From Fimbriimonadaceae bacterium (lineage in GTDB: Bacteria; Armatimonadota; Fimbriimonadia; Fimbriimonadales; Fimbriimonadaceae): a stretch of DNA of 64,000 bases. This document shows, one piece after another, positions 1,105 to 9,545 of this stretch. The position numbers and the translations under genes were made by a program. A model generated the notes under the pieces. That model searched no databases and had not been told where the DNA came from. It saw only the letters and a list, made by a program, of their open reading frames with translations. Positions within the stretch are counted from its first letter, which is position 1, and the number at the start of each line of letters is the position of its first letter. The DNA lies in NCBI GenBank assembly GCA_019454145.1, contig CP075366.1:1281564-1345563 (forward strand), given 5' to 3'.

Positions 1105-1824
1105 ATGAAGAATTTTGTAACTGGATTCACTTTGCTTGCGCTAGCATCCTTTGCATTGGTTGGATGCAACAAAGACAACGGCGGAGCGGCAAAATCGGCG
1201 GCAGCACCCAAAAAGATAATTTCATTTGGCGACCCCAAAACCGTAAAAGTTCAGGACTTGCTACCAAAAACAAAGGGGACACAAGCAACCTATGAAGTCG
1301 TTGGCAATCCTGGCAACGATCTCACGATTAGAGTGAAGGACTATCAAGAAAATGGCGGAATGCCTCGCCTCACTCTGGAGTTTCTGGAAGGCAACAAAGT
1401 GACAGACGTTTCGGAATGGGAGTTCCGAGAAAAAGGTCTCTACCAACTCTCGGCTCGGAAAGGCAAACCGTACAATCCTCCCACACTTCAGATTAGCAGC
1501 GATTTAACAGACCGGAAGGAATACAGTTTTAAAGGCACAGGGCCTTATCCATCTGTTGAGGCAGGCAAACCTGATACCGGCCCGATGGAATCCCTGACTA
1601 AGATTCGTGGCGTAGAAACTGTCGATACGAGCATGGGTCAAATTGAAGCATTGGCCGTTATCACTGCTACCATTTACACGTCTGATGGTAAGAAGTACCG
1701 ACAAATGAACACCACGTGGTTCGCCCCGAAATACGGTATCGTTCGGTATGTTCAAAACCTACAGCGAGAGGACGGTCAATCCAGTTCGTTTACTCTGAAA
1801 CTTAAAGGGTTCAGCGCAAAGTAG
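1105..1824 (+). CDS. Lipoprotein, member 1 of a tandem exported-protein array
   Basis: A 239-residue protein with a lipoprotein signal: hydrophobic MKNF...ALASFALVGC with Cys at about residue 21, followed by a polar Ala/Gly-rich linker. AGGA lies about seven bases before the ATG. I do not recognise a catalytic domain. Its last 40 residues contain TTWFAPKYGIVRYVQ, which matches in spacing the C-terminal motifs of the next three proteins (AWYAAGVGTVKLS, SIYAKGIGLVEFS, FWFKPGEGLIRRD). A turn of the type G-Q-I-E-A-L-A-V precedes it, similar to the G-E-F-D-C-I-V of the second copy. I read the four genes as diverged paralogues. The gene lies 8 bp after the SecD-like gene and 18 bp before the next, consistent with one operon. 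Confidence 0.7.
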   Translation: MKNFVTGFTLLALASFALVGCNKDNGGAAKSAAAPKKIISFGDPKTVKVQDLLPKTKGTQATYEVVGNPGNDLTIRVKDYQENGGMPRLTLEFLEGNKVTDVSEWEFREKGLYQLSARKGKPYNPPTLQISSDLTDRKEYSFKGTGPYPSVEAGKPDTGPMESLTKIRGVETVDTSMGQIEALAVITATIYTSDGKKYRQMNTTWFAPKYGIVRYVQNLQREDGQSSSFTLKLKGFSAK

Positions 1825-1842
1825 TAACGGTTAGAAAAAATT

Positions 1843-2580
1843 ATGCGAAGGTTCTTTACACTCATCACAGTCCTGACAATTGCTGGAATTCTTACTGGCT
1901 GCACGCCGCCAGCAAAAAAGACTGAAGTACCACCTAAAACTCAAGCTGAGAACGGCGGTGGTCAAGAGGCTCCTCCCGCAGATCCCGCTACCATTCCTGA
2001 ATCCCTGAAGCATGATGCGTTTCACTATTACGGTCTTGAAGCGACTCAGGAAATGACCTACGATTTTGACTACAACGGCAGTGTGCGCCAGGGCACCCAA
2101 AAAGCAACTTTCTTGGGAATGAAGGACGGTAAAGCCGAATACAAAATCGAACGATCAGATGCCCTTCAAATTATGGGCACAGATAAAATCGAAGTTGCGG
2201 AAGATGGCATTTACCTTACGGAAGTCAAGCAACAGCCGCTTGAAAAAGCAGTCATTGCCCTTCCAGCCAAAGTTGAGGTTGGAGCATCCTGGCCAATAGA
2301 TCAAAAGCTCCGTGACGGCGATGGGAACGATGTACTGAGCAAAGCCGTCCAGAAGATAGTTGGGCAGGAAAAAGTAAAGACTCCTGCTGGTGAGTTTGAC
2401 TGCATCGTTGTGACGATGGAAGGAACTTTGACTGTCCAAGATGAGAAAAAGAAAGCCACGCCAGTTACCGGCAAAGCCTGGTATGCAGCTGGAGTTGGAA
2501 CTGTAAAACTCAGTATTACTTCAACTGGGCCAGACGGAAAACCCGTTAGCTACACCATCACCCTTGCAAGTAAAAAGTGA
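1843..2580 (+). CDS. Lipoprotein, member 2 of a tandem exported-protein array
   Basis: A 245-residue predicted lipoprotein: MRRFFTLITVLTIAGILTGC has a clear lipobox with Cys at residue 20 and a Pro/Lys-rich linker after it. The core has the most family-like layout of the four: a strand with VEVGASW, then AGEFDCIVV, then AWYAAGVGTVKLS near the C-terminus. This order (V-G-x-x-W, G-x-F-[DE], W-[FY]-A-x-G-x-G-x-V) is seen in a widespread group of beta-rich exported proteins of unknown function. No active-site residues stand out. The stop overlaps the next start as GTGA (2577-2580), which implies translational coupling. Confidence 0.7.
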   Translation: MRRFFTLITVLTIAGILTGCTPPAKKTEVPPKTQAENGGGQEAPPADPATIPESLKHDAFHYYGLEATQEMTYDFDYNGSVRQGTQKATFLGMKDGKAEYKIERSDALQIMGTDKIEVAEDGIYLTEVKQQPLEKAVIALPAKVEVGASWPIDQKLRDGDGNDVLSKAVQKIVGQEKVKTPAGEFDCIVVTMEGTLTVQDEKKKATPVTGKAWYAAGVGTVKLSITSTGPDGKPVSYTITLASKK

Positions 2581-3278
2581 TCACGTCTCTATTCGCTACC
2601 GTTCTTGCCAATGCTCTGGTTGGACAAACTCCAGAAGCATATTTTCCTTTGGTTGCGGGAACGGTACGAATATACGAGCAAGAAGTGAACTCCGGTGGCA
2701 AAAAGTATAAGTCGCGAATTATTGAAACCGTACAAGGCGAAACTACAATTAAGCGATTTGAAATGGTTCCAGATCCAACCGAACTCGACCCAACTAATGA
2801 GAAGAAAGTCTGGATAGAAGAAAAAGCGATCCCTGTAACTTCTTCGGTTGATGGAAATGACCCCGAGTACACTTACTATAAGACTGTCGGAGATCGAGTC
2901 TTTATCGTCGGAACTGCTCAGGGAGAACTGCTTATTCAGGCGTTTCCGATTCTTGCGTTTCCCAAAAACGATGATCGCTCTACTTGGCTATACAGTGGAA
3001 ACGTGACTGTTATGGGAGCACCAGCTCCAACTCTTATTGAAGGCGAAGCATACATTCGTAAAGCATACAAATACAAAAATAAAGAATATCCAGCTATTGA
3101 ATCGAAGGCAACCTATAAATTTCAGCTAGGCGGAGGTATTGAAGCATTAAGTGAACAAACTTCAATCTACGCAAAAGGAATTGGTCTGGTTGAATTTTCG
3201 GAAACTGGTCGGCTTGGAAAAGAAGTAACCAAAGTACAACGCAGGCTAGTCCAAATTGACATTCCTACAGCGCCATGA
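2577..3278 (+). CDS. Exported protein, member 3 of a tandem exported-protein array
   Basis: A 233-residue protein starting at a GTG inside the GTGA overlap with the previous gene. The N-terminus (ITSLFATVLANALVGQ) looks like a short signal peptide without a lipobox Cys, so this copy is probably soluble or cleaved by signal peptidase I. It carries FPLVAGTVRIYE near residue 25 and SIYAKGIGLVEFS near residue 205, the two hallmarks shared by the array. A 55-residue insertion between these motifs, rich in charged and aromatic residues, has no counterpart in the other copies. Its stop overlaps the next start as ATGA (3275-3278). Confidence 0.68.
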   Translation: MITSLFATVLANALVGQTPEAYFPLVAGTVRIYEQEVNSGGKKYKSRIIETVQGETTIKRFEMVPDPTELDPTNEKKVWIEEKAIPVTSSVDGNDPEYTYYKTVGDRVFIVGTAQGELLIQAFPILAFPKNDDRSTWLYSGNVTVMGAPAPTLIEGEAYIRKAYKYKNKEYPAIESKATYKFQLGGGIEALSEQTSIYAKGIGLVEFSETGRLGKEVTKVQRRLVQIDIPTAP

Positions 3279-3967
3279 AATCTGCCCCACTTTTTGCGTT
3301 CGGATTAACACTTCTGCTTCTCGCAGGGTGTGTACCCCCTGCGCCAAAGGCTGGGCCAGAGGAAACTAATCCGCCAGAGCCTTCTAAAATTGATTCTGTT
3401 TTTCAAACCGCAGAATCGCTGAAACCGGAAGTCTCGCCTCCTAAAGAAGCAAATATCATTCTTACCGGAACCTCCATTCCAGTTGAACTGAAGGAAGTTC
3501 GAAAAGAGAATCAGGTGAACTACACCTGGGTGGTTGATCCGAAGTCAGAATCTGGCGAACCGGTAGAAGTTGAAACCGAGAAATACTTTTACAACGATTC
3601 TGTTTTCTCTTTCGCGGGAACCGCACACGAAAAATATGACCCTCCCATTCGCTTGATCCAATACCCTTTGGAAGTCGGCTCTACTTGGGAATGGACTGGC
3701 AATATTATTACGGGTCAGATTAAAAGCCCTGCCAAGGCAACAATAACGACTGCGGCAGACACATCTAATTGGGCTTCCGGAAAGGTGAACACTTTACTTG
3801 TAAAAGTTACGCTCGAATTTGCCGCCCGAACTTCTCCAACGGCACGAGAACTAAAGTTCTGGTTTAAGCCGGGCGAAGGATTAATTAGACGCGATCTTTG
3901 GGATAGCTCAACCAGAGAACTCAGGGCTACTCCCCCCGGCACTCCCGCACCTGAGAATCCCGAATGA
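3275..3967 (+). CDS. Lipoprotein, member 4 of a tandem exported-protein array
   Basis: A 230-residue predicted lipoprotein (SAPLFAFGLTLLLLAGC, Cys at about residue 19) with a Pro-rich linker. The paralogue motifs are present as YPLEVGSTWEW and FWFKPGEGLIRRD. The C-terminal tail is Pro-rich and may be disordered. The start is the ATG of an ATGA overlap with the preceding gene, and the stop overlaps the rodA start in the same way (3964-3967), so the four exported proteins and RodA should be made from one message. A role in envelope assembly is suggested only by that linkage. Confidence 0.68.
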   Translation: MKSAPLFAFGLTLLLLAGCVPPAPKAGPEETNPPEPSKIDSVFQTAESLKPEVSPPKEANIILTGTSIPVELKEVRKENQVNYTWVVDPKSESGEPVEVETEKYFYNDSVFSFAGTAHEKYDPPIRLIQYPLEVGSTWEWTGNIITGQIKSPAKATITTAADTSNWASGKVNTLLVKVTLEFAARTSPTARELKFWFKPGEGLIRRDLWDSSTRELRATPPGTPAPENPE

Positions 3968-5082
3968 GTTTCATTGCCGATAGCTCCAGTTTAGTTATCG
4001 AGCGTGATGATCGAAAGAAACACGATCTCGGGTTAATCCTGAGCGCGCTTGCCTTGCTTTGCGTTGGCCTGTTCTCTATTCACAGCGTTGATGTTGGTCA
4101 AGGTACTGCCTATATGTACCGGCAAATGGTGTTTGCGGCAATAGGAATCGTCGTGTTTTATATATTTAATAAATTCAAACTTGAATATTTCAAGGTCATT
4201 GCGACCCCGCTTTACATCTTAAATTTAGTTATGCTTGTTGCAACTTTGTTCTTGGGCAAAAGCCGCGGAATTACCTCTCGGTGGATTGAAATAGGGCCGC
4301 TTCAGTTCCAGCCTAGTGAGGTTAGTAAATTGCTTTTGGCGATTACCTTGGCCACCTATTTTGCAAATCGCCAAGATCGACTTCGGGAACTACCGACTTT
4401 TTTGGGAGCGCTTGCGCACACGATTCCGATTGTTGCTCTCGTGCTACTGCAGCCTCACCTTGGAGCGTCAGTCGCTCTCCTCTTTCTCACCCTGATTGCA
4501 GCGGTAAACATTGGCACTCCCTGGAAGTATTTTCCAGCCATTTTTGGAGTTATTGCCGTTTTGGTTGCGGCGGCTTGGATAACCCCAAATGTAGTTCCTG
4601 ATTATATGCGGGCCAGGGTTGAAGCAAAAATCCAAGAACTTGTCTATGGCAATCGTGATATTAGGGGTGACGGCTACCAGCAAGATCAAGCCAAGCTGGC
4701 AATCGGTAGCGGTGGCGCAACCGGAGCAGGCTTTTATCAAGGTGATCAAAAAGCCGCTGGTGTAATTCCAGAGCAGCACACTGACTTCATTTTTTCAGTG
4801 ATAGGCGAAGAAGGAGGATTTTTTGGTTCTGTGCTGGTTATCGGAATGTTCGGAGTGTTCTTCTTTTTTGTTGGGCGACGAGCTTACATGGCAAAAACCG
4901 TCATGGGGCGAGTAGTTGCTTCATCATTGTTTGCCGTTCTGGCATTTCATACAATTGTCAACCTAGCCATGGTATTGGGATTCGGCCCGGTGGTGGGCTT
5001 ATGGCTGCCGTTTATGAGCTACGGCGGTACGGCGCTTTGGATGTGTATGGGAGCAGTCGGATTGCTCGACCAATGCGAATAA
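3964..5082 (+). CDS. rodA: RodA-type SEDS peptidoglycan glycosyltransferase
   Basis: A 372-residue polytopic inner-membrane protein of the FtsW/RodA/SpoVE family, which polymerises lipid II into glycan strands for cell elongation together with a class B PBP. Ten or so hydrophobic segments are visible. Family motifs include FQPSEVSKL near residue 115, the IPEQHTDFIFSVIGEE loop near residue 270, and the C-terminal LPFMSYGGTA. It could in principle be FtsW; the absence of a division/cell-wall gene cluster and the short N-terminus favour RodA. No mre genes or elongation PBP are visible nearby. Here it is instead the last gene of the exported-protein operon. Confidence 0.88.
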   Translation: MSFIADSSSLVIERDDRKKHDLGLILSALALLCVGLFSIHSVDVGQGTAYMYRQMVFAAIGIVVFYIFNKFKLEYFKVIATPLYILNLVMLVATLFLGKSRGITSRWIEIGPLQFQPSEVSKLLLAITLATYFANRQDRLRELPTFLGALAHTIPIVALVLLQPHLGASVALLFLTLIAAVNIGTPWKYFPAIFGVIAVLVAAAWITPNVVPDYMRARVEAKIQELVYGNRDIRGDGYQQDQAKLAIGSGGATGAGFYQGDQKAAGVIPEQHTDFIFSVIGEEGGFFGSVLVIGMFGVFFFFVGRRAYMAKTVMGRVVASSLFAVLAFHTIVNLAMVLGFGPVVGLWLPFMSYGGTALWMCMGAVGLLDQCE

Positions 5083-5098
5083 TTAGAAAAACGAAATT

Positions 5099-5155
5099 AT
5101 GTTGTAACATAGCTGAAGACAACTGTCGTCATACTATTTGAAGACAACTGTCTTC
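5099..5155 (+). promoter_or_regulatory. Paired BlaI/MecI-like operators with promoter
   Basis: Two near-identical dyads lie 25 bp apart: 5140-5155 is a perfect inverted repeat (GAAGACA-AC-TGTCTTC), and 5115-5130 is the same with one mismatch in the right arm. Both contain the ACA-N2-TGT core seen in CopY/BlaI/MecI operators. A third palindrome, ATGTT-GT-AACAT, lies at 5099-5110. A possible -10 box TACTAT (5132-5137) sits between the two dyads, so a bound repressor would cover promoter and transcription start; I see no good -35. A BlaI-family repressor gene lies 0.8 kb downstream in the same operon, supporting autoregulation. Confidence 0.7.
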
Positions 5156-5198
5156 ACCCGTTCCTGGAAGTGCACACCAGGGCGGGGACAGGAGAAAA

Positions 5199-5876
5199 AT
5201 GTACTTAGAAAGAAAACTAGCAACCGCTTCTATGGTTGTACTCGCTGTTACCGCGGCCTTCGCAGTTGCACAAGTCGGCCCAGCTCGCCAAGGATCGGGA
5301 GGACAATCCAGTTCCACTCCAGCGGCAGCCAGTGGTGTTTTAGCTCCACTGAAAATGACTCCAATGCAAGATGTTATGAACCACATTATTACGTGGGAGC
5401 AAAGTATTGCACTGAATGAGCTCGGGGGAACTAGCCCAGATTACAATGCTCTTCCTCAAAGAACGATTGACGCTCGGATGGAAGTCGTGCGGGCATGTAA
5501 TCTCTACTTGCGTGCGACATTAACACCAAGTCAGCAAGAAACCTATGACAGAGTGATCCTTGATCCAGTTGGACATCCTCTACCTTCAAAGTGGGAAAAG
5601 ATGCGCCTTAAGGGAACGCTAGTCAGTGAACTGTTGAAATCGGATGCTAAACAGTTTGAAAAAGCTAAGGACGTACAGGAAGCGTTCCTTGAACGCCAAC
5701 ATGCGATTTGGGGAACAGGTCACAAAAACGGTGGCTACATCAAAAACCATAATCTGCTGATTTCAGACTTTCGTGGCATCTTGAGTAAGACGCAACTCGC
5801 TGAATTCAACGAACTTTGGTCTAACTATAAGCGAGAAGTGGATGCGGCCAAAGCGAGCGCCGTAATTAAGCCTTAA
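5199..5876 (+). CDS. Exported protein with two LTxxQ-like motifs
   Basis: A 225-residue protein with a signal peptide (MVVLAVTAAFAVAQ) and a Gly/Ser/Ala-rich linker, then a largely helical body. It contains LTPSQQETYDRV (about residue 109) and LSKTQLAEFNELW (about residue 198), which resemble the LTxxQ motifs of Spy/CpxP periplasmic stress proteins; overall similarity to that family is unproven. An AGGAG site lies five bases before the ATG, unusual in this window, and the gene has a roughly 55-base leader carrying the operators. It is the first gene of an operon with a BlaI-type repressor and an M56 protease, so it is probably the induced product of that sensor circuit. Confidence 0.65.
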   Translation: MYLERKLATASMVVLAVTAAFAVAQVGPARQGSGGQSSSTPAAASGVLAPLKMTPMQDVMNHIITWEQSIALNELGGTSPDYNALPQRTIDARMEVVRACNLYLRATLTPSQQETYDRVILDPVGHPLPSKWEKMRLKGTLVSELLKSDAKQFEKAKDVQEAFLERQHAIWGTGHKNGGYIKNHNLLISDFRGILSKTQLAEFNELWSNYKREVDAAKASAVIKP

Positions 5877-5895
5877 CCAACCCAAGCAACTAAAC

Positions 5896-5918
5896 GGGGG
5901 GTTTTGAACTTTCCCCCC
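5896..5918 (+). other. G6/C6 hairpin between exported-protein gene and blaI
   Basis: Six consecutive G (5896-5901), an 11-base loop and six consecutive C (5913-5918) form a strong stem. The following bases are TAAACC, not a T-run, so a full intrinsic terminator is doubtful. It could uncouple expression or protect the mRNA of the upstream gene from 3' decay, giving more exported protein than repressor. The role is inference. Confidence 0.5.
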
Positions 5919-5929
5919 TAAACCAAACC

Positions 5930-6319
5930 ATGAGTGAAAGAAAATCTATTGGAAAAGCCGAGCTTGAAATTCTCAAGTTCATCGCGGAATCGGGAGAAAC
6001 ACCCGTTCGTGCCGTTGCCGACCACTTCGCGGAAAGTAAAGGTTACGTTCGACCCACAGTGTTAAAAATGATGGAACGGCTCCGTGCCAAAGGTTATCTG
6101 GAGCGATCATCATTGGACGATATCTTTGTTTATCGAAGCACCGCTGACCAGAAGCAACTGAATCAAGACTTAGTTGAGGATTTTGTTAAAGGGCCACTGG
6201 ATGGATCAGTCACACCCATGGTCGCTTATTTAGTAGAACAGAGGGATATCTCTCAAGACGACATTTCACGACTGAAGAACCTCATTTCTAAACTCGAACA
6301 GGAGCATAAAAATGACTGA
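5930..6319 (+). CDS. blaI: BlaI/MecI/CopY-family transcriptional repressor
   Basis: A 129-residue winged-helix protein: GKAELEILKFI at the N-terminus, a recognition region GYVRPTVLKMMERLRAKGYLER, and a C-terminal dimerisation helix pair. In this family an M56 membrane protease triggers cleavage of the repressor and derepression. The gene lies 53 bp after the exported-protein gene and overlaps the M56 gene by 8 bp. A TAAACC box (5919-5924) five bases before the ATG could give a second, leaderless transcript. Likely operators are the dyads at 5115-5155. The signal is unknown: no beta-lactamase or PBP gene is nearby. Confidence 0.88.
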   Translation: MSERKSIGKAELEILKFIAESGETPVRAVADHFAESKGYVRPTVLKMMERLRAKGYLERSSLDDIFVYRSTADQKQLNQDLVEDFVKGPLDGSVTPMVAYLVEQRDISQDDISRLKNLISKLEQEHKND

Positions 6320-7307
6320 ATTCCTTCATCTATGGCCCGTCCATATCCTGAACGCAACCGTTCAAGGAAGTCTGGCTATCCTCTTGGCACTTGCGATCTG
6401 CCACTTAGGTACTAAAATTCCTGCTCGCATCCGAGCCTGGATCATGCGGATTTCACTCTTCAAGCTACTGGTCGCTGGTTTTTTTGTTGGAGGAGTCGCA
6501 GTGGCTCAACTTCCGCAGAATGAAAAAAGTGAGGCGCCTAATCCCATGCTTGAGACCATGCTCTTGGTTTCAGCCTGCCTGTGGGCTTGTTGTGTAATTA
6601 TCTCCGCGATCCGATTATTCAATTCAACAAAAAGGTTGGATCAGTTCTTGAGCGGAACTATTGAAGTTAAAGAACTGCATGTATTAAAGGTTTATCAAGA
6701 TATCGCCAAGTCACTTGGCATCAATTCTCTCCCGCGCTTGGTTTCACACCCTGAAATCAATTCGCCAAGGTTGATAAAAAGAAATGGCAATGTGATCGTT
6801 CTGTCGCAGGATCTTCTGGACATCAACGTGACTGAAAAACTGAGGGTTGTGCTTGCCCATGAATTGGCGCACCACCGCCACGGAGACCTTGCATGGGGCT
6901 GGCTTCAAACGATTACGGATGCATTCTTTTTCTTCAATCCTCTCGTTGGGCTGGCCCACAGGCAACTTAGGCTCATGGAAGAATACGCCGCCGATGCAAC
7001 CGCAATCCGTGTGACCGGATGCAAACCTGCCACCTATTCGCACACCCTGCTTTCCTTTTTAACACCTTCGGTCGCATTCCCGCAAGCCTACGCGATGGCT
7101 GATGGTTCCAAGGAGTTGGAGCAAAGAATTCAGGAATCGTTTGTGACCCGCAGAACTGGAACAGTGGACGTAGTGCTAGCTCTCGTACTTTGCTCCGTGA
7201 TCGCGATAATTACCTTAGTTCCTTGGACAATGGCTACGCCTCAACCATTAGCGGATTCGCAACCGCCAATTTCGCCGATGAGAATCGCCGCGCCTATGGG
7301 ACGCTAA
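6312..7307 (+). CDS. M56 family (BlaR1/MecR1-like) membrane metalloprotease
   Basis: A 331-residue polytopic protein with N-terminal membrane segments, a zinc-protease motif HELAHHRHGD at residues 183-192, a further EEYAADATA motif about 45 residues later that fits the third zinc ligand, and a C-terminal membrane helix (about residues 287-307). It stops shortly after that helix, so it lacks the extracellular penicillin-binding domain of BlaR1. Sensing must use another surface or a partner, perhaps the exported protein encoded first in the operon. It starts 8 bp inside blaI, implying coupled synthesis with the repressor it should control. Confidence 0.85.
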   Translation: MTEFLHLWPVHILNATVQGSLAILLALAICHLGTKIPARIRAWIMRISLFKLLVAGFFVGGVAVAQLPQNEKSEAPNPMLETMLLVSACLWACCVIISAIRLFNSTKRLDQFLSGTIEVKELHVLKVYQDIAKSLGINSLPRLVSHPEINSPRLIKRNGNVIVLSQDLLDINVTEKLRVVLAHELAHHRHGDLAWGWLQTITDAFFFFNPLVGLAHRQLRLMEEYAADATAIRVTGCKPATYSHTLLSFLTPSVAFPQAYAMADGSKELEQRIQESFVTRRTGTVDVVLALVLCSVIAIITLVPWTMATPQPLADSQPPISPMRIAAPMGR

Positions 7308-7322
7308 CGTTGCTGAACCTGC

Positions 7323-7328
7323 TATAAT
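7323..7328 (+). promoter_or_regulatory. Leaderless -10 box of ftsK
   Basis: A perfect TATAAT ends six bases before the ftsK ATG at 7335, so transcription should begin at or next to the start codon. No TTGACA-like -35 is evident at the usual distance. Confidence 0.75.
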
Positions 7329-7334
7329 AGCCAT

Positions 7335-9545
7335 ATGCCCAAGGAAGGGCCAACACCCACCCGGAAAACGCCGGCAAGAAGCCGAAAAGCCCCGGAGCAG
7401 AAGATTCACCAACTTCCCGATATTGGTGGCATCTTGCTCCTTGTGATCGCGTGTGCTCTTCTCATTGGCCTCGCCGCCCGCAACGGAGGCATTATCGGCG
7501 ATTCACTCGCTAAAGGGTTCAGCCTCCTATTCGGTCGCGGCGCATGGCTCGCCCCTATCGGTTTAGGTGCGGTCGGGATCGCGATGATTCTCAAACATCG
7601 GCAAAAACATTCTGGCCGGTTGATTACAGGAGCCGTTTTTATTTTTCTAGGAATACTCGGCGCACTTGCCAAACCGATTGAGGGTGATTTCTTTACCGAC
7701 CAAGCTATGCTGACCAGCGGCGGTTACTTTGGCGCAATCATCGGATGGGCACTCACCAGCTTGATGGGCGGCGGAAAAGTCATAGCTGTTATCGCGATAG
7801 TCCTCATCGGAGTTGTTCTCGCTTTAGACGATCCACTCAAAGAAGTTCTCAAGCGATTTACTGCCCCACGCGAGCCAGTTGAGAACAAGAAAACCAAAGC
7901 GGTTCCAGAAACCACAAACGAAAAGGAAGACCGCCGCGCAAAAACCATGCGGATGCTCGAAGAATCTGAGCGAGAAAAATCTGCTGAGGCCCCAACTAAA
8001 AAGCAACCGTTAGTTTATGAATCTAGCCGCAAACCTAGCGAAATCCAGCTAGACATTACCAGCGAGGCTCCGAAAGATGGCTACATCTTGCCTCCCCTCA
8101 ATCTCCTGGCTGAGCCTTCTAAAAAGAACAAACGCGACCCGAAAGAAGTTCAGCGCAATATCGAGATTCTCGAAGACACCCTAGAACAGTTTGGTGTGGA
8201 AGCAAACGTGACCGAAGTTGCCAACGGGCCGACGATCACCCGCTACGAAGTCGCGCTTGGAACAGGGATACGTGTTAGTAAAATCAAAAATCTTGCTGAT
8301 AACATTGCAATGTCACTCGCCGCGCAATCGGTTCGAGTTGAAGCTCCCATCCCGGGGAAATCGGCGATCGGTTTCGAAATTCCCACCGCACAACGCCAGA
8401 TGGTCAGTCTGCGCGAAATGTGCGATAGCTTAGAGTTTCACGACCAGCAAAACAAACTCACCATTGCGCTGGGACACGATGTAGCCGGGCAATCCAAATA
8501 CACCGACCTCACCCGCATGCCGCACCTTCTCGTGGGCGGGGCAACAAACTCGGGGAAATCCATCTGCCTGGCCAGCATAATCATGTCGCTGATTCTGCGG
8601 CTCACTCCTAAAGATTTACGCCTGGTGATGATAGACCCGAAGCGGGTGGAACTCACACTATTTGAAAACCTACCGCACCTGATGTGCCCGGTTGTCAAGG
8701 ATGTCAAAGAAGCCGCTGGTGTTCTTCGAGCGGTTGTTCGCGAGATGGATCGCCGGTACGATCAGTTCAGCGAAGCCGGAGTGCGGAACATTGATGGCTG
8801 GAACGCTAAGGCTTCGTTCCAAGACCGTCTTCCCTTCATCGTTGTCATCGTAGATGAACTCGCGGACTTGATGATTCAGTGCCGCAACGAAGTTGAAACC
8901 AGCATTTGCCGCCTCGCTCAGCTAGCGCGCGCTACGGGAATCCACCTCATCATCGCCACCCAACGCCCGAGCGTAGACGTGATCACCGGAACCATAAAAA
9001 ATAACATTTCTAGCCGGATCGCTTTTGCGGTTTCATCGGGGATTGACAGCCGCACCATTCTGGATTCCGTCGGCGCAGAAGATTTGATCGGTAAAGGCGA
9101 TATGCTTTTCCTCCCTATTGATGCCACCAAACCCATTCGGGTGCAAGGGTGCTACGTCAGCGAAAAAGAGATCGAAGACGTCTGCAATTTCTGGCGCCAG
9201 CAAGAAAAACCACGCTATGTTATCAATCCGGTTGAAGTCGCGATTAAAGATAAAGAAGACCAAATGCGCGAATCGGGCAGTGCGGATGAACACTGGGAAG
9301 AAGCCGTTCGGTTCGTTGCTGAAAAAGGTCAGGCCAGCACTTCTATGCTCCAGCGCAGGTTCAGCATCGGATTCCAGCGGGCTTCACGGCTACTTGATCT
9401 AATGGAAGAACGCGGAATCGTCGGCGCTCGTGAAGGTTCTCGCCCGCGCGAAGTGATGATTGATGTAATGGGAGCGGAGGCAATGCTCGGCAATGCGTCA
9501 TACGATTCCCCAATGCCAGATGGCGCATATCTGGACGACGATTAG
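7335..9545 (+). CDS. ftsK: FtsK/SpoIIIE DNA translocase
   Basis: A 736-residue hexameric ATPase that pumps chromosomal DNA through the division septum. Four hydrophobic segments lie in about residues 30-165, followed by a charged linker (about 175-270), the alpha/beta motor with Walker A GGATNSGKS at 401-409 and Walker B VVIVDELADL near 503-512, and a C-terminal winged-helix gamma domain (about 645-700, QRRFSIGFQRASRLLDLMEE). The gamma domain normally reads polar KOPS/SRS sequences. The linker is short compared with enterobacterial FtsK and similar to SpoIIIE. A perfect -10 box six bases before the ATG marks a leaderless start. Confidence 0.96.
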   Translation: MPKEGPTPTRKTPARSRKAPEQKIHQLPDIGGILLLVIACALLIGLAARNGGIIGDSLAKGFSLLFGRGAWLAPIGLGAVGIAMILKHRQKHSGRLITGAVFIFLGILGALAKPIEGDFFTDQAMLTSGGYFGAIIGWALTSLMGGGKVIAVIAIVLIGVVLALDDPLKEVLKRFTAPREPVENKKTKAVPETTNEKEDRRAKTMRMLEESEREKSAEAPTKKQPLVYESSRKPSEIQLDITSEAPKDGYILPPLNLLAEPSKKNKRDPKEVQRNIEILEDTLEQFGVEANVTEVANGPTITRYEVALGTGIRVSKIKNLADNIAMSLAAQSVRVEAPIPGKSAIGFEIPTAQRQMVSLREMCDSLEFHDQQNKLTIALGHDVAGQSKYTDLTRMPHLLVGGATNSGKSICLASIIMSLILRLTPKDLRLVMIDPKRVELTLFENLPHLMCPVVKDVKEAAGVLRAVVREMDRRYDQFSEAGVRNIDGWNAKASFQDRLPFIVVIVDELADLMIQCRNEVETSICRLAQLARATGIHLIIATQRPSVDVITGTIKNNISSRIAFAVSSGIDSRTILDSVGAEDLIGKGDMLFLPIDATKPIRVQGCYVSEKEIEDVCNFWRQQEKPRYVINPVEVAIKDKEDQMRESGSADEHWEEAVRFVAEKGQASTSMLQRRFSIGFQRASRLLDLMEERGIVGAREGSRPREVMIDVMGAEAMLGNASYDSPMPDGAYLDDD

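Follow-up and report, generated by a model that had tools for sequence, protein, structure and literature searches.

A BlaI/M56 operon with tandem operators and an exported protein as candidate detached sensor in a Fimbriimonadaceae bacterium

What does a BlaI-type circuit sense, and through which of its parts, when an exported protein stands in its operon in place of a beta-lactamase? The question is raised by a locus of a Fimbriimonadaceae bacterium (Armatimonadota; genome of 2.76 Mb), contained in the 64,000-nucleotide stretch of DNA analysed here, referred to as the window. In this operon two dyads are followed by an exported-protein gene, blaI and an M56 gene, in that order (Table 1). The earlier note on this DNA, made from the letters alone, had proposed a BlaI repressor gene, an M56 protease without a penicillin-binding domain and an operon devoid of a beta-lactamase, and all three are borne out. 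The repressor matches Penicillinase_R over residues 7-120 of 129 (E 6.8e-23; 81.7 bits vs 22.6), and its PMVAYLVEQ region is conserved among relatives. The protease, a Peptidase_M56 match, retains an intact HExxH at residues 183-187 (H183, H187) and the glutamate expected as zinc ligand (E224). Its hydrophobic segments span residues ~10-40, 42-68, 78-106 and 281-310, and it ends in a short tail ~20 residues past the last of these membrane helices. No Pfam match to a penicillin-binding domain was obtained for the window M56, the generic BlaR1 model scores 72 bits against a cut-off of 400, and the C-terminal sensor of BlaR1 and MecR1 is absent. In this family an M56 protein often lacks a penicillin-binding domain, so the window protein is not unusual in that respect. 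The stop codon of blaI overlaps the start of the M56 gene, so that these two genes at least are probably co-translated.

Table 1. Features of the BlaI/M56 locus, in positions of the window
Feature	Position	Strand	Evidence
Cassette inserted between rodA and ftsK	5083..7309 (boundaries approximate)	+	Comparison with sister genome G004
GTAACAT element just upstream of operator 1	5104..5110	+	GTAAC at about the same place in 4/4 loci with the exported gene first
Operator dyad 1, TGAAGACAACTGTCGTCA	5114..5131	.	One arm mismatch; genome search and family consensus
TACTAT as putative -10 hexamer, in the spacer of the two dyads	5132..5137	+	TANNNT frequency in tandem loci
Operator dyad 2, TGAAGACAACTGTCTTCA	5139..5156	.	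Perfect dyad; genome search and family consensus
All-helical exported protein of 225 aa with a pair of L[TS]xxQ motifs; candidate as detached sensor or feedback inhibitor	5199..5876	+	Signal-peptide-like N-terminus; relatives; AF2 model
Intercistronic GC hairpin GGGGGG/CCCCCC, no U-tract	5896..5918	+	Hairpin likewise placed in G040, G071 and G078
BlaI/MecI-type repressor, 129 aa, no cysteine	5930..6319	+	PF03965 match
Short M56 protease, 331 aa, no sensor domain	6312..7307	+	PF05569, E 2.8e-26; topology, motif
Extended -10 of ftsK, TGCTATAAT	7320..7328	+	Outside the cassette; 6 nt before the ftsK ATG

The operon shares with the BlaI-BlaR1 and MecI-MecR1 systems of staphylococci and bacilli its repressor family, the M56 zinc protease with HExxH...E, the ACA-N2-TGT dyad core and co-regulation within an operon. 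Unlike those systems, the window has neither a penicillin-binding sensor domain nor a lactamase or PBP2a, its first gene encodes an exported helical protein, and its dyads carry the flanks TGA[AC][GT] and come as two copies. The earlier note described these as two copies of one dyad before the operon; both are present and their starts are 25 bp apart, but they are not identical, as the first has a mismatch in one arm. When TGAAGACANNTGTCTTCA is searched with 0-1 mismatches, the two dyads are the only sites in the genome, while up to 3 mismatches return 12 genome sites vs 7 for the reversed control. The family consensus TGAMKACANNTGTMKTCA likewise has its sole exact genome matches at the window dyads. 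Elsewhere in the same genome (L088; G000:C1:2524224) lies a second blaI-M56 pair without a recognisable dyad, with an M56 of 603 aa and a BlaI 25% identical. As to the promoter, the putative -10 between the dyads falls at a position where TANNNT occurs on the gene strand in 26 of 57 tandem loci and on the other strand in five. The GTAAC element stands a few bases 5′ of operator 1, at too great a distance from TACTAT to be an ordinary -35, and a search for a sigma-70 -35/-10 pair for the operon found none, with no good -35.

The dyads extend well beyond this organism. The consensus TGAC[GT]ACANNTGT[AC]GTCA was found upstream of blaI, frequently in tandem, in 69 of 80 named loci (which are not independent cases, as many of the xanthomonad loci are closely related), with two copies in 31 of the named loci under a strict rule. 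The background in the named loci is 0.0053 dyads per kb, an expectation of 0.0016 for each upstream region. Armatimonadota, Xanthomonas, Stenotrophomonas, Pseudoxanthomonas, Luteimonas, Myxococcus, Acidobacteria and Planctomycetes are among those represented; the scan of named genomes found no relative with a single BlaI as query and succeeded with a BlaI alignment. Tandem copies are spaced 23-38 bp apart, most often 27. Within 85 genomes of the family, the exact tandem pattern occurs at 18 places, 16 of them at BlaI loci, while the reversed pattern gives 7 hits in total. Fourteen of these 16 sites lie directly upstream of the blaI operon (counting G007, whose contig breaks off within a BlaI-like start), and the remaining two directly upstream of an exported gene adjoining blaI/M56. 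For BlaI, MecI and CopY the same ACANNTGT core has been reported (PMC7253601). The reading of the dyads as BlaI operators is supported by this core and spacing across related operons, and the check proposed for it, that the dyads recur in orthologous operons, holds in the great majority. They are almost certainly operators to which BlaI would bind, and the claim, now broader than a first reading of the sequence could know, is solid.

Two tandem ACANNTGT pairs lie away from blaI. That at L193:4412 (G046) stands before an imuB/dnaE2-like operon and that at L194:185 (G029) near a YedK/SRAP-like gene, both names being taken from reading of the sequence. These pairs are possibly an SOS-type box, or may have arisen by chance.

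The module itself is an accessory cassette. G004 is a near-identical sister genome (RodA 94% and FtsK 99% identical to those of the window) in which rodA runs straight into the ftsK promoter TTGCTGAACCTGCTATAAT, and the identical promoter stands 3′ of the cassette in the window. The alignment of the two genomes is interrupted at ~5079/7309, and the rodA-ftsK gap (5082-7335 in the window) is an insertion site, filled with the BlaI cassette in the window and empty in G004. From this comparison, the BlaI/M56 module (~5083-7309) is an accessory cassette, gained in the window genome or lost in its sister. Gain is favoured, because an orthologue of the exported gene and a close BlaI were absent from 7/7 congeners searched. 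A functional tie of the cassette to rodA or ftsK is rejected, since the gap holds different genes in two further species and ftsK is provided with a conserved -10 of its own. Elsewhere (L178 and L180 were inspected for the gap) it contains an amidase-like ORF in G007 and a small two-gene pair in G005, both named from sequence reading and not from a database match. A TGCTATA[AC]T-type motif precedes ftsK in the congeners inspected, and the distance of only 6 nt from the extended -10 to the ATG (7320-7335) suggests that the ftsK transcript may be leaderless. Upstream of rodA, at 1105-3967, four genes in a row encode proteins of 230-245 aa that are exported or lipoprotein-like, with DUF3108-like matches in two of them.

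The blaI-M56 operons of Armatimonadota, Xanthomonadaceae and myxobacteria resemble that of the window in operator, M56 and BlaI (37-46% identical), but differ from it in the M56 C-terminus and in the exported gene. In most of these relatives blaI follows the dyads directly, mostly without a distinct exported gene intervening, and the M56, usually of 450-800 aa, has a fused, variable extracytoplasmic C-terminus of STN-like (sub-threshold), propeller, low-complexity or Q-rich helical type. In the window, G040, G071 and G078, by contrast, the dyads precede an exported-protein gene and the M56 measures ~308-331 aa, and G010 and G051 likewise have a short M56 (332 and 324 aa), followed by the exported-protein gene. 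The six partner loci thus show two gene orders, with the exported gene first in four and last in two. Altogether, a separate exported LTxxQ-like protein accompanies the M56 in 6/7 short-M56 loci vs 0/30 long-M56 loci (Fisher p 3e-6, with a length cut-off set post hoc and loci that share ancestry); the exception is L089 (G004), where no exported partner of the short M56 was seen. The M56 tree pairs the window with G040 and G071 with G078, the BlaI tree does not cluster these four, and on these trees the exported-gene type may have arisen once or several times.

Exported counterparts of the fused regions are also found. At L079 (G056; STN-like; E 2.5e-8), L074 (G063; propeller; E 1e-17) and L077 (G041; HAF-type repeats; E 5e-5), the exported protein encoded next to blaI/M56 shares homology with the C-terminus of the M56 of the same locus, so that exported copies of the M56 sensor region recur; at L075 the exported protein is not homologous to its own M56 C-terminal region. 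The propeller protein of L074, a long-M56 locus, is encoded between operator and blaI, and the exported gene of L077 has its own tandem operator. Conversely, the M56 of L062 (G014; L062:4381-6066), which has a tandem operator, carries a helical region with repeated LTxxQ-type motifs (VTDEE, LTDEQ, LSPDT, LTPTE, LKPDE) fused past its last membrane helix. This region reaches 20.9 bits against the LTXXQ cut-off of 24.3 (Pfam E 0.0006, sub-threshold), and its comparison with the exported family (pairwise E 0.002, HH probability 13.8%) is only suggestive of homology.

The exported protein of the window has relatives in operons of the same type in G040, G071 and G078; those in G010 and G051 are more distant. 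The other exported proteins are 19-24% identical to that of the window. The six proteins contain 12 L[TSN]xxQ motifs, compared with 1.4 in shuffles, and the second motif, LxxxQxxE, is invariant among the four closest members. The earlier note had called it an exported protein with two LTxxQ-like motifs; the signal-peptide-like N-terminus and the motifs, as L[TS]xxQ, stand, but assignment to the LTxxQ family does not. Against Pfam the window protein gives no match at E<=10, and although G040 and G071, of its three close relatives, give LTXXQ (PF07813) matches, these fall below the curated cut-off of 24.3 bits (17.9 and 14.8; the more distant G010 18.8). On these sequence profiles it is provisionally left outside the LTXXQ (Spy/CpxP) family, no match having reached the cut-off. 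AF2 models of the window and G051 proteins are all-helical, with pTM of 0.69 and 0.48 and a pLDDT of 66.8 for the window protein. With both models Foldseek gave no significant fold match (best E 0.67 and 0.23), and the VIA fold search gave none either (best Z 6.0, a helical bundle, window model only); a Spy/CpxP fold was absent from the rows returned. A PDB sequence search with the exported family found nothing, and a phylum-wide search with it found only four Fimbriimonadaceae members plus four marginal partial matches of doubtful meaning (E 0.0015-0.01).

All four loci with the exported gene first have a GC-rich hairpin in the intercistronic gap ahead of blaI, lacking a U-tract and formed by unrelated sequences. 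In dinucleotide shuffles the hairpins give z values of -0.47 (window), -2.56 (G040), -1.86 (G071) and -2.98 (G078); they stand out in three of the four loci and not in the window, whose hairpin is supported by its recurrence in the other three.

Operator conservation, gene content, insertion of the cassette, and co-occurrence of a short M56 with an exported protein are directly supported, and from them we infer an autoregulated BlaI/M56 switch with a split-off sensor, which as an explanation of the whole we hold with about even confidence. Its core of BlaI, operator and M56 is very probably correct. At rest, BlaI dimers would sit on both dyads and hold down expression of the exported-protein/blaI/M56 operon. 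BlaR1 cuts BlaI directly and is regulated by its outer domain (PMC9834060); by analogy, an extracytoplasmic signal would activate the M56 zinc protease, which would cut BlaI and so induce the operon. The M56 here has no outer domain, so that the signal has to come from a partner unless the membrane portion senses alone. With the window M56 stopping so soon after its final membrane helix, the probable reader of the signal is the exported helical protein of the same operon, which would replace the fused C-terminal region of the relatives. The simplest version would resemble CpxP, an induced periplasmic inhibitor that is titrated off CpxA (PMC6737893): the exported protein would dock on M56 and hold it off until a ligand, for instance damaged envelope material, titrates it away. 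As the product of the first gene of the operon, it could restore the off state after induction, and the intercistronic hairpin may hold it in excess over BlaI and M56. Like CpxP and Spy, it is a small, exported, all-helical LTxxQ-like protein co-regulated with a membrane signalling protein; unlike them, it belongs to a group matching the Pfam model only below cut-off, its partner is a protease and not a histidine kinase, and its role is a candidate one.

The chief competing explanation, which we regard as possible though short of probable, is that the exported protein is only an induced effector, such as an envelope chaperone, while the short M56 senses alone, by way of its membrane helices, its outer loop or a regulated self-cleavage. 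An effector would be expected first in the operon, as it is here, and would equally yield a co-regulated exported protein; the chaperones Spy and CpxP are LTxxQ proteins (PMC6737893), and the hairpin suggests that the exported protein may be wanted in excess. This explanation, however, leaves unexplained why the partner is linked to a short M56 while the long M56 has an extracytoplasmic region of its own, and why exported proteins elsewhere resemble the local M56 C-terminus. The part in an envelope-stress response that the earlier note proposed is a hypothesis; its suggestion of a sensor or effector was a reasonable guess, and the comparative evidence leans towards a detached sensor. That the exported protein serves as one is evenly balanced in our judgement, and is offered as a testable proposal.

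The system is likely not one for beta-lactam resistance. A sensing or resistance system that has lost its lactamase would account for the BlaI/M56 gene pair and for its position beside rodA, a cell-wall gene, yet the M56 has no penicillin-binding domain and stops after its last membrane helix, the operon contains no lactamase, and the rodA-ftsK gap holds unrelated genes in other species; we consider this very unlikely. Still less credible is a metal-controlled circuit of the CopY type. CopY and CopR copper repressors belong to a common superfamily with BlaI and use an operator of the KACANNTGTM type, CopY operators contain ACANNTGT and can be paired (PMC7253601), and the window BlaI matches the CopY/TcrY model with 49 bits. 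This score is far under the equivalog cut-off of 122 bits, though, and the repressor is without cysteine and thus without the CxC metal site, while its partner is an M56 protease and the operon has no copper pump. Equally slight is the chance that the dyads bind another regulator and adjoin blaI only incidentally, as the two pairs before non-blaI genes in G046 and G029 might suggest; against it, BlaI loci account for 16/18 tandem sites and the association is seen across phyla.

The switch with a split-off sensor may be one case of a more general rule, which we put forward tentatively and at a little under even confidence. The extracytoplasmic sensor of BlaI/M56 systems would be an interchangeable module that is fused, duplicated as a free exported copy or present in trans only, and the window would represent the trans-only form, a split BlaR1-like receptor sensing a non-beta-lactam signal. 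Among the papers searched, nothing specific on such systems was found, nor a statement of the signal to which these BlaI/M56 variants react. In poorly studied phyla it is common for a BlaI/M56 pair to lack a beta-lactam sensor, and the shared and often tandem operator allows their regulons to be read from sequence. If the proposal is true, a separate exported sensor would allow signal recognition to be studied apart from the membrane protease.
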